From: Rubrobacter taiwanensis
Lineage (GTDB): Bacteria; Actinomycetota; Rubrobacteria; Rubrobacterales; Rubrobacteraceae
Direction of reading: 5' to 3'
Assembly: GCF_004337705.1 (NCBI RefSeq)
Contig: NZ_SKBU01000002.1
Location: 1 to 43,301, forward strand
DNA length: 43,301 nucleotides
Shown: positions 16,454 to 39,645 of the stretch, piece after piece
How positions within the stretch are numbered: position 1 is the stretch's first letter
Layout: the number at the start of each line of letters is the position of its first letter
Translations under genes and position numbers: made by a program
The notes under the pieces: generated by a model
Seen by the model: only the letters and a program-made list of their open reading frames with translations
Database searches by the model: none
Told to the model about the DNA's origin: nothing

Positions 16454-17245
16454 TTAGGCCCGCTCTTCGTCGCCGGGGAAGCGCTCCGGCAGCGGCCCCT
16501 CGGTCACCGGGTTCACGTACCGGGCGATCAGGATGCTCACCTCGTAGAGCAGGGTGAGCGGGATCATCATCATGATCATGCTGAACGGCTCCGCCGGGGT
16601 GAGCACCGCGGCCACCACGGCGTTAACTATTATGGCGTGGCGGCGGAACCTGCGGAGCGTCGGGGCGGTTATAAGACCGAGCTTCGCGCCCACGTAGGTG
16701 GCAGCCGGAACCTCGAAGGCTATCCCGAAGGCCAGCAGGAAACGCATGACGAAGGAGAGGTAGGCGTCCCCCGTGATTATCGGCTGAAAGCGGTCTCCGC
16801 CCCACCCGATCAGGAAATTCATCGCGAACGGCAGGACGAAGTAGTAGGCGAAGGCCGCCCCGGCCAGAAAGAGCAGGGAGGCCAGGGTCACCAGCGTGTA
16901 GGTAAAGGCGCGGCCCACCTCGCCCACCGCCGGGACCACGAAGGCCCACGCCTGGTACAGCGCCCACGGCAGCGTCAGCATCAGCCCAACGTAGAGCGTG
17001 ATCTTGATGTCGGTCATGATGGCGCCCGTGACGCCGGTGAAGTTCAGCTGGCCGCCGAGACGCTCCGCGGGAGCCAGCAGCCAGTTGAAGACCGGCACCC
17101 TGAAGAACCAGGCCACAACGACCACCGCGACGAACGCGATCCCGACCCGGATGATCCTGGACCGCAGCTCGTCCAGGTGCTCGACTATCGTCATTCGCGC
17201 TTCGTCGTCGCGCGAAGCCGAAGGCAGTCTCAGACGGCCGGCCAT
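16454..17245 (-). CDS. tatC: Sec-independent translocase subunit TatC
   Basis: The 263-residue membrane protein has six hydrophobic segments and TatC landmarks: HLDELRSRI before helix 1, the P-rich loop after helix 2 (LPWALYQAWAFVVPAVGEVGRA), FEVPAATY in the third loop and TPAEPFSM near the last helices. With TatA it moves folded proteins across the membrane and reads the twin-arginine signal. It follows tatA by 13 bases. The first ATG lacks a ribosome site, and an ATG 17 codons on (MTIVEHLDELR) is an equally good start by homology. Confidence 0.95.
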   Translation of the reverse strand: MAGRLRLPSASRDDEARMTIVEHLDELRSRIIRVGIAFVAVVVVAWFFRVPVFNWLLAPAERLGGQLNFTGVTGAIMTDIKITLYVGLMLTLPWALYQAWAFVVPAVGEVGRAFTYTLVTLASLLFLAGAAFAYYFVLPFAMNFLIGWGGDRFQPIITGDAYLSFVMRFLLAFGIAFEVPAATYVGAKLGLITAPTLRRFRRHAIIVNAVVAAVLTPAEPFSMIMMMIPLTLLYEVSILIARYVNPVTEGPLPERFPGDEERA

Positions 17246-17258
17246 CTGGCGGTGAGGC

Positions 17259-17507
17259 TTACAGGTTCCGCTCGGTGCGGGCGCGCTCCTCTTCCTCGGA
17301 GCCGACCTCCTGGCGCTCGTTCAGCTCCCGCCGCTCCTTCTCCTCGTCCGACTCGTCGTAGGCGCCGGAAGAAGACTTCTTGAACTCCCGCACGCCGCTT
17401 CCGAGCCCGCGGGCGAGCTCCGGGATGCGCCGGGCCCCGAAGAGAAGGAGGATGATGACCAGCAGAATCAGTAGCTCAGGTCCCCCGATATTACCCACGA
17501 ACGGCAC
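17259..17507 (-). CDS. tatA: Sec-independent translocase subunit TatA
   Basis: This 82-residue protein has a single N-terminal membrane helix (PELLILLVIILLLFGARRIPELARGLG) followed by the amphipathic helix GSGVREFKK and an acidic tail, the TatA/E layout. It starts at GTG with AGGAGG six bases upstream and leads directly into tatC. A perfect TATAAT lies about 38 bases upstream. A second TatA-like gene occurs at 37769. Confidence 0.93.
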   Translation of the reverse strand: MPFVGNIGGPELLILLVIILLLFGARRIPELARGLGSGVREFKKSSSGAYDESDEEKERRELNERQEVGSEEEERARTERNL

Positions 17508-37733: not shown

Positions 37734-37762
37734 TTGTAACCGTACCCCGCACAGAGTATATT
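37734..37762 (+). promoter_or_regulatory. Promoter of the second TatA gene, start site at the ATG
   Basis: TTGTAA (37734-37739), a 17-base spacer and TATATT (37757-37762). The ATG begins at 37769, seven bases after the -10, so the transcript should begin at the A of the start codon. Confidence 0.7.
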
Positions 37763-37768
37763 TAGTCC

Positions 37769-37981
37769 ATGTTCGGCATCGGTCCTACGGAGCTGGTTAT
37801 CATCGGGCTTCTCTTCCTGTTGATCTTCGGCCCCCAGAAACTCCCGGAGATCGCCCGGGATATAGGCAAGTTCGTCAACGAAGCCCGCAGGTCCGTGGAC
37901 GAGTTCAAGCAGGAGCTTAACGTGCTCGACGAGGAAGAGCAGGAGAAGAAGCGCCCCCGCCGCACCCGCACCCGTAACTGA
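37769..37981 (+). CDS. Second TatA/TatB-like translocase subunit
   Basis: The 70-residue protein has the TatA layout: MFGIGPTELVIIGLLFLLIFGPQKLPEIARDIGKF gives one membrane helix, the conserved FGP turn and an amphipathic helix, then an acidic/basic tail. FGP-x-x-LP suits TatA or TatB. It has no Shine-Dalgarno and a -10 just before the ATG. It lies apart from tatAC but directly upstream of a gene with a Tat-like signal, so it may serve that substrate. Confidence 0.9.
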   Translation: MFGIGPTELVIIGLLFLLIFGPQKLPEIARDIGKFVNEARRSVDEFKQELNVLDEEEQEKKRPRRTRTRN

Positions 37982-38092
37982 GGGCGCGCCCTTTTTCCCG
38001 ATCCTACCCCCTCCGGGTCTAAAGTTTTCCATCGTTTTGGGCGATAATATAAGGGCAGCCGCACACGAAAAAGATTGTCTGGAGGGAGGGGA

Positions 38093-38719
38093 ATGCATTC
38101 CGAAGAATCCCCTGTCAGGCCTTTGAGCCGCAAAGACTTCCTGAAGCTGGGGGCCGCCGGCGTAGCCGGAGCCATACTGTTCGCCGGCGCGGGCCGGGCG
38201 CTGGCCCGGCCGCGAGGGTCCTCGCTCATGGAGGAGTTCCGGGCGGCCGCCCGGCAGTACAACGTGCCCGTGGAGCTGCTTATGGCGATGGGCTGGGTCA
38301 ACACCCGCTGGGAGATGCCGCCGCCGCACGTCTCGGAGTACGAGCCCGGCAACCTGCACGGCACGGGCATCTACGGCATCATGGCGCTGGTACAGAATCC
38401 GTCCGCCGACACGCTGGGGGAAGCCTCGCGGCTTACCGGCATCCCGGAAGAGACGCTCAAGCGCGACCGGGCGGCGAACATCATGGGCGGGGCGGCGCTT
38501 CTGGCCCGGGCGCGGGCCGCAAAACACACCCCGGAGCCCACGCCGCAGGCCCGGGCGCTCTCGGCGGTCGAGGGCGGTCCGGCCTACGACGCGATCGCCG
38601 GGGTCGGGGGCGGCGAGCTCTACCGGCAGCAGGTGGCGGACGCGCTCAGGAGCGGGGTGTCGGCCACGACCCTTGCGGGTGAGAGGCTCACCCTGCCGTC
38701 GCAGGCGGGTGTTCTCTGA
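38093..38719 (+). CDS. Tat-signal-bearing lysozyme/SLT-like protein
   Basis: This 208-residue protein starts with ATG at 38093 (GGAGGGAGGGGA upstream). Residues 10-40 form a Tat-like signal, SRKDFLKLGAAGVAGAILFAGAGRALA, with RK where two arginines are usual. The rest resembles a lysozyme-like transglycosylase domain: EFRAAARQYNVPVELLMAMGWVNTRWE, GTGIYGIMALVQNPSADTLGEASRLTG and RAANIMGGAALLARA, in the order of SLT domains, with E in NTRWE as the candidate acid. It precedes a cell-wall amidase whose ATG overlaps its stop (TGATG). A GATAAT box at 38043-38048 may be its promoter. Confidence 0.68.
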   Translation: MHSEESPVRPLSRKDFLKLGAAGVAGAILFAGAGRALARPRGSSLMEEFRAAARQYNVPVELLMAMGWVNTRWEMPPPHVSEYEPGNLHGTGIYGIMALVQNPSADTLGEASRLTGIPEETLKRDRAANIMGGAALLARARAAKHTPEPTPQARALSAVEGGPAYDAIAGVGGGELYRQQVADALRSGVSATTLAGERLTLPSQAGVL

Positions 38720-39645
38720 TGCCCCGGCCGGACTACCAGCAGGCGCGGTGGTATGGGGCCCACTCGGGCAACTACTCAACGGCCAACCGCCCCTCCTCAA
38801 ACCCCATAAACAGGATCGTGCTCCACATAACCGAAGGGTCGTGGTCCTCGGCCATAAACTGGTTCAACGACTCAAGGGCCCAGGTCTCGGCCCACTATGT
38901 TGTGCGCTCTTCCGACGGGTTTATCGGCCAGTGCGTGGAGGAGAAGGACATAGCCTGGCACGCCGGCAACTGGCCGGTGAACCAGACCTCAATCGGCATA
39001 GAGCACGAGGGGTTCGGCAACGACCCCAAGTGGATGACCAGCGCCTTATACGACTCTTCGGCTCGGCTTTCGGCGTATCTGTGCCGCAAGTACAACGTTC
39101 CCATAAGGCATGCCCAGAGCGCTTCTGAGCAGGGGTTTCTGCTGCACCGGCAGGTGACCTCGACGGCCTGTCCCGGGCGCTACTTCGACATCGCCCACTA
39201 CCTGAACCGCGTGCGCAGCTACACTCAGCACCGGCAGGTGGTGGACAACGCCAACTCCAACCGCTTCAGGGCCTCCGGCGCGTGGGGTACGAGCTCCTAC
39301 AGCTCGCAGCGCTACGGCAGCGACTACCGCTTCGCCAACCCGTCCAGCAACAACGACCCGGCGATGTTCAAGATCCGGATCCCCCGCCGGGGCCGGTACA
39401 GGATCTTCGCCTGGTGGCCGGCCCTCCCCGGTTACAACCCCAGAACCCCGATAGCGATCCAGACCGCCTCCGGCTGGCAGAGGGTCTTCGTGAACCAGCG
39501 CCAGAACGGAGGCCGCTGGAACCTGCTCGGGACCTTCGAGATGGCGGCCGGGGACGGGTGGTGGATCAGGATCCAGCGCAGCAGTCCGCAGCCGAACGGG
39601 GGATACGTCATAGCCGACGCGGTAAGGGTCGTAGAGGTCGTCTAG
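38719..39645 (+). CDS. N-acetylmuramoyl-L-alanine amidase with C-terminal golvesin-like domain
   Basis: The 308-residue protein has an Amidase_2/PGRP zinc amidase domain (about 28-165): H36 (IVLHITEGS), Y60, H143 (LLHRQVTS) and C151 (TACPGRYFD) as ligands or active-site residues. Residues 185-305 are a beta-sandwich resembling the golvesin C-terminal/Xly-type carbohydrate-binding domain (YSSQRYGSDY, FAWWPALPGY, YVIADAVRVVEV). It would cut peptidoglycan stem peptides from muramic acid. No signal peptide is present, which is odd for a cell-wall enzyme. It is coupled to a preceding gene that does have one. Confidence 0.88.
   Translation: MPRPDYQQARWYGAHSGNYSTANRPSSNPINRIVLHITEGSWSSAINWFNDSRAQVSAHYVVRSSDGFIGQCVEEKDIAWHAGNWPVNQTSIGIEHEGFGNDPKWMTSALYDSSARLSAYLCRKYNVPIRHAQSASEQGFLLHRQVTSTACPGRYFDIAHYLNRVRSYTQHRQVVDNANSNRFRASGAWGTSSYSSQRYGSDYRFANPSSNNDPAMFKIRIPRRGRYRIFAWWPALPGYNPRTPIAIQTASGWQRVFVNQRQNGGRWNLLGTFEMAAGDGWWIRIQRSSPQPNGGYVIADAVRVVEVV

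Follow-up and report, generated by a model that had tools for sequence, protein, structure and literature searches.

How does a cell-wall amidase leave the cell if it has no signal peptide of its own? The question is raised by a locus of Rubrobacter taiwanensis in a DNA stretch of 43,301 nucleotides (here called the window), one contig of a 3.0 Mb genome. Three genes follow each other on its plus strand. The first encodes a TatA/B-family membrane protein of 70 aa (37769..37981). The second encodes P2 (38093..38719), a protein of 208 aa with a Tat-type signal of the RK variant and a pseudo-lytic-transglycosylase domain. The third encodes P3 (38719..39645), a signal-less N-acetylmuramoyl-L-alanine amidase of 308 aa with an Amidase_2 and a Golvesin_C domain. 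P2 and P3 are coupled by a TGATG stop/start overlap (38717..38721, plus strand). A sequence-only reading had described the same series, namely a TatA-like gene, a protein with a Tat-like RK-variant signal (SRKDFLK) and an amidase, and all three genes proved to be real, with the start of the middle one moved to 38093.

P3 matches the Pfam families Amidase_2 (111 bits) and Golvesin_C (129 bits), and it presumably belongs to an amidase family different from that of AmiA and AmiC of E. coli. We take H36, H143 and the C or D at position 151 to be the Amidase_2 zinc ligands. The two histidines are present in 59 of 59 rows, and position 151 (C151 in the window) is C or D in all 58 rows that have a letter there. 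The P3 frame is open for just 12 codons upstream of its ATG and offers no other start codon, thus leaving no room for a hidden upstream signal peptide, and no hydrophobic stretch was found by hydropathy in the N-terminal region. A missed signal peptide, which would have undermined the earlier description of the amidase as signal-less, can be ruled out on these grounds.

For the pairing of the two genes we used all 59 strong P2 matches in the Rubrobacteraceae, leaving out weak matches that cover the signal peptide only. P3 follows P2 in 58 of the 59 copies. The remaining one (L129:4001-5200, excluded from the pair counts) is a decayed pair at a conserved TatA/B locus, with stops, frame changes and amidase remnants. 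P2 and P3 form a single fused open frame in 38 of the 58 pairs and are separate in 20. Overlaps similar to that in the window (TGATG, TAATG, TAGTG or ATGA) occur in 17 of the 20 split pairs; as for the others, P3 of L113 starts one base past the stop, and the two genes lie 41 bases apart in L099 and 50 in L131. GGAG, GAGG or AGGA is found within 20 bases upstream of the P3 start in 17 of the 20, the window being among the three without. There is no start codon above the junction start in the P3 open frame of 18 split pairs (the exceptions are L097 and L112). A signal-like stretch near the P3 N-terminus was found by hydropathy in none of the 20 (N-terminal 12-residue hydropathy, maximum 1.09). 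Since the fused relatives carry both parts as one signal-bearing unit, P2 probably carries P3 out of the cell. No direction is claimed for the splitting: ten copies from outside the family are fused, the basal branching of the family is unresolved, and the fitted rates favour the opposite.

It is possible to read the missing signal differently, with P3 as a cytoplasmic amidase, in AmpD-like recycling or another role, whose activity was moved inside the cell by the splitting. P3 does show a weak similarity to AmpD (NCBIfam, 38.6 bits), and the same genome encodes a signal-less paralog without P2. However, the AmpD score is far under the cut-off of 143, and the Golvesin_C tail is also present in a Paenibacillus xanthan lyase. 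Moreover, a P2 gene precedes every one of the 20 split copies (19 of them with a scorable signal), and the fused relatives bear a signal. A cytoplasmic P3 therefore seems unlikely.

The split could also be only apparent, if a programmed frameshift joined the P2 and P3 frames into a single polypeptide. In fact, among 19 listed split pairs, 18 have the P3 frame at +2 relative to that of P2. However, this offset arises because the junctions are TGATG or ATGA overlaps, L113 has an offset of +1, and the gapped pairs L099 and L131 do not fit either. The Shine-Dalgarno-like bases before 17 of the 20 P3 starts also speak against a frameshift, and no conserved slippery heptamer was seen by eye in the junctions listed. 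We therefore do not favour this explanation and give it very little credence. The same low probability applies to gene decay as an explanation, with the split copy left without function. Decayed copies do exist (L129, and L140, which lacks the P2 N-terminus), but the window retains the presumed zinc ligands and two intact reading frames, and the split state is common to whole clades, for example L095/L098 and L106/L108/L111/L112.

The best start of P2 is the ATG at 38093, which is preceded by GGAGGGAGGGG; the listed open reading frame begins at a TTG at 38075. The core of the Tat-type signal, from SRKDFLK to ALA, comprises P2 residues 12-38 (38126..38206, plus strand) and is assigned from its motif and from a moderate h-region as in the relatives. 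The signal, SRKDFLKLGAAGVAGAILFAGAGRALA, has an h-region hydropathy of 2.09, which is within the range of Tat-type relatives. It matches R-x-x-F-L-K and fails the strict RR pattern, as do four other split partners.

The mature part of P2 had been suggested to have an SLT-like fold. Against Pfam, P2 of the window gives no match of note; 27 of 50 family members of P2 match Pfam SLT at E<=0.1. A structure model of P2 (mean pLDDT 73.5) aligns to MltF, Slt, MltC and MltE at Z 11-13, and the first 28 rows are all lytic transglycosylases; for MltF, the Z-score is 12.8 over 122 residues (rmsd 3.3). Foldseek returned an E-value of 9e-4 with the same model, yet TM-scores of just 0.36-0.37 for the two best rows. 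With this reservation about the Foldseek TM-scores, the suggested fold is confirmed.

A profile alignment places GYQESLW of MltF opposite GYVNTRWE of P2. The Glu at this position in MltF is presumably the catalytic residue of lytic transglycosylases; P2 of the window has N70 instead, and the 50 rows of our alignment A1 have N (47) or S (3). Eight rows of the copy table lie beyond this alignment: L145 and L146 have Glu, L135, L144 and L181 have Asn, and L140, L182 and L183 are not resolved by the pattern. L145 and L146 come from family genomes; both are distant and fused, and on the tree they cluster with the copies found outside the family. Of the outside copies, three keep Glu and others have Q or V. 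Across the distant fused relatives, Glu is kept in five copies (L145, L146, L212, L213 and L214) and is Q or V in others (compared copies L147, L217, L219, L220 and L215), a repeated loss of the active-site residue. Although L145 and L146 keep the residue, its absence from all 50 rows of the alignment makes an active transglycosylase unlikely, and P2 of the window probably does not cut glycan. Lacking the catalytic Glu, P2 is probably a carrier or a wall-binding domain.

If P3 is carried out in a folded state, the type of signal on P2 should matter. Our criterion for a Tat-type signal was the motif R-x-x-F-[LIV]-[KR] ahead of the mature P2 domain. Hydropathy agrees with this call: the most hydrophobic 12-residue mean in the family P2 signals is 1.41-2.38 for the Tat-type and 2.49-3.21 for the others. 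The split partners comprise 19 Tat-type signals, no other and one that could not be scored; the fused family pairs comprise 24 Tat-type, 13 other and one unscorable signal (Fisher p 0.002 for family copies and the motif call). Counting TatP-like RR patterns as Tat shifts one fused copy (25 vs 12, Fisher p 0.005). A Pagel-type test of split state against signal type gave p 0.016, and simulations on the trees gave p 0.03-0.26 depending on the rate; L140 and L183 (at a contig end) were excluded from trees and tests. The rows are related, with just 4-6 changes between the split and fused states on the trees and two well-supported independent pairs. Sec moves unfolded single chains, so split pairs with Tat-type signals only are what hitch-hiking predicts. 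This bias is suggestive of hitch-hiking by a folded P3 and is not proof of it. Two P2-P3 fusions lie close together at four loci; at L107, L124 and L128 one fusion is Tat-type and the other Sec-type, and at L120 both are Tat-type.

Fused SLT-like-Amidase_2 proteins are also found in other Actinomycetota. We inspected 10 of 14 such copies, nine of them from one genus with genomes of 6-10 Mb; the remaining four appear as single frames of 678-684 aa. The ten inspected copies have the same two domains as P2-P3 in the same order, but all are single polypeptides and the F-L-K-type Tat motif is absent from all of them; another difference is the Glu kept by three. A TatP-like RR pattern occurs in four of the ten, and the hydropathy values of the ten overlap those of Tat-type signals. 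We therefore dropped them as evidence for Sec-type signals. Tests that count them as non-Tat (Fisher 1e-4, Pagel p 0.005) rest on labels assigned by eye and are to be discounted.

The window also contains other Tat genes. The genome has a single match to TatC (16559-17182, minus strand), with a TatA gene adjoining; together (16454-17507) they represent the general Tat translocase. A third TatA-like gene of the genome lies on a different contig. The protein encoded at 37769 is assigned to the TatA/B family by Pfam TatA_B_E (47.7 bits) and by conserved synteny. In NCBIfam it scores 49.0 bits with tatB and 48.2 bits with tatAE, reaching neither cut-off (56.5 and 53.9, respectively), and it reads as TatB-like or as a second TatA. 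Of 36 family genomes, 32 have relatives with at least 65 bits. A Zincin_2 gene adjoins this gene in 29 of the 30 loci that we inspected. By contrast, the amidase pair adjoins it in only 7 of the 30, one of these pairs being decayed and another (L132) having a Sec-type signal. An HD-domain gene follows without an intervening P2 or P3 in 20 loci, and no HD gene was seen in three. The proposal of a private TatA that supports the export of the amidase must therefore be abandoned: the gene belongs to a conserved synteny block and reads as a general Tat component, a neighbour of the pair and not a dedicated part of it. A promoter-like TTGTAA-17-TATATT is located at 37734-37769, ending 6 bases upstream of the TatA/B ATG. 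No Shine-Dalgarno-like bases were seen by eye before this ATG, and the transcript is possibly leaderless. A promoter and terminator scan between the TatA/B gene and P2 found neither.

Taken together, these data lead us to a model in which P2 and P3 would be the two halves of a wall amidase. Many relatives make both halves as one chain with a signal; here the chains are separate and translationally coupled. P3 would fold in the cytoplasm and then bind P2, and the P2 signal peptide would take the complex through the ordinary Tat translocase, that is, TatC/TatA at 16454-17507, perhaps together with the protein encoded at 37769. Outside the cell, P3 would cut peptidoglycan, and P2, with its Glu-less lytic-transglycosylase fold, and Golvesin_C would hold the glycan. 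From the gene sequences, we consider it somewhat probable that folded P3 leaves the cell with P2 via the general Tat translocase. The hitch-hiking part of the sequence-only reading is strengthened by the 38 fused pairs among 58, the recurrent gene order and coupling, the absence of signals from all 20 split P3 and the Tat-type signals of all 19 scorable split partners; the supporting TatA is the part that did not hold. The pair does consist of a Tat-signal partner and a signal-less cargo, with the RK variant placing the signal outside the strict RR pattern. A model of a natural fused protein (pTM 0.63) showed no firm interface between P2 and P3.

The closest analogue comes from another actinobacterium. 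According to one report, the tyrosinase operon of Streptomyces is bicistronic, with the Tat-signal helper MelC1 encoded first and the signal-less enzyme MelC2, its hitch-hiker, second (PMC2758597). P2 and P3 have the same arrangement. They differ from the copper enzyme and its activator in being a lysozyme-fold partner and an amidase and in often being fused. Joint export with P2 is the most likely route for the split amidase and would match that of MelC2 with MelC1. HybOC, PaoABC and other redox hitch-hikers of E. coli likewise have signal-less subunits that are taken along by a Tat-signal partner (PMC4273604, PMC10924467); P3 resembles them in this respect, but is a cell-wall hydrolase and not a redox enzyme. 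The cell-wall amidases AmiA and AmiC of E. coli are also exported via Tat, and each bears its own Tat signal, unlike P3 (PMC6085387). In the open-access literature searched, we found no wall amidase described as a hitch-hiker. If the model is correct, Tat hitch-hiking would extend beyond redox enzymes to a cell-wall hydrolase, and the split and fused variants within one family would offer a ready way to learn under which conditions export needs Tat instead of Sec. For an amidase cargo, a reporter assay already exists in E. coli.

A second amidase in the genome (G000:C11:51081-51989, corresponding to L134:6076-6993) is 78% identical to P3. It has no P2 beside it and no signal, and a stop codon lies immediately upstream of its GTG start. 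It adjoins a gene for a polysaccharide pyruvyl transferase; the further neighbours look glycan- or sulfotransferase-like by eye only. This paralog may use P2 in trans, stay in the cell, or leave it otherwise, and its existence cuts both ways for the hitch-hiking reading. From sequence, one could extend the model to a former lytic transglycosylase, now without its Glu, that serves as a dedicated Tat carrier for folded amidases, both P3 and, in trans, the paralog; we regard this extension as doubtful.

Amidases without a partner also bear on the question of whether P3 might exit by a route independent of P2, such as lysis, a holin or non-classical export. P3 matches PHROG endolysins, and P3-like amidases without P2 or an obvious signal occur elsewhere, one of them near an integrase. 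However, the pair in the window sits among conserved chromosomal genes, its pairing with P2 is constant, and a Sec-type P2 is found in no split pair. We consider an independent exit improbable and retain export with P2 as our preferred reading. The partnerless, signal-less P3-like amidases, judged by eye, are L148-L150 and L184. Near each of the amidases of L148:3196-4705, L149 and L150 (G013, G022) lies a gene with a match to a peptidase PHROG; Pfam classes the one in L149 as papain-like. It is possible that amidase and peptidase form a separate two-gene module. As to whether these solo amidases are phage lysins, the scanned neighbours of L148-L150 match the peptidase PHROG and, for L148, also an integrase.
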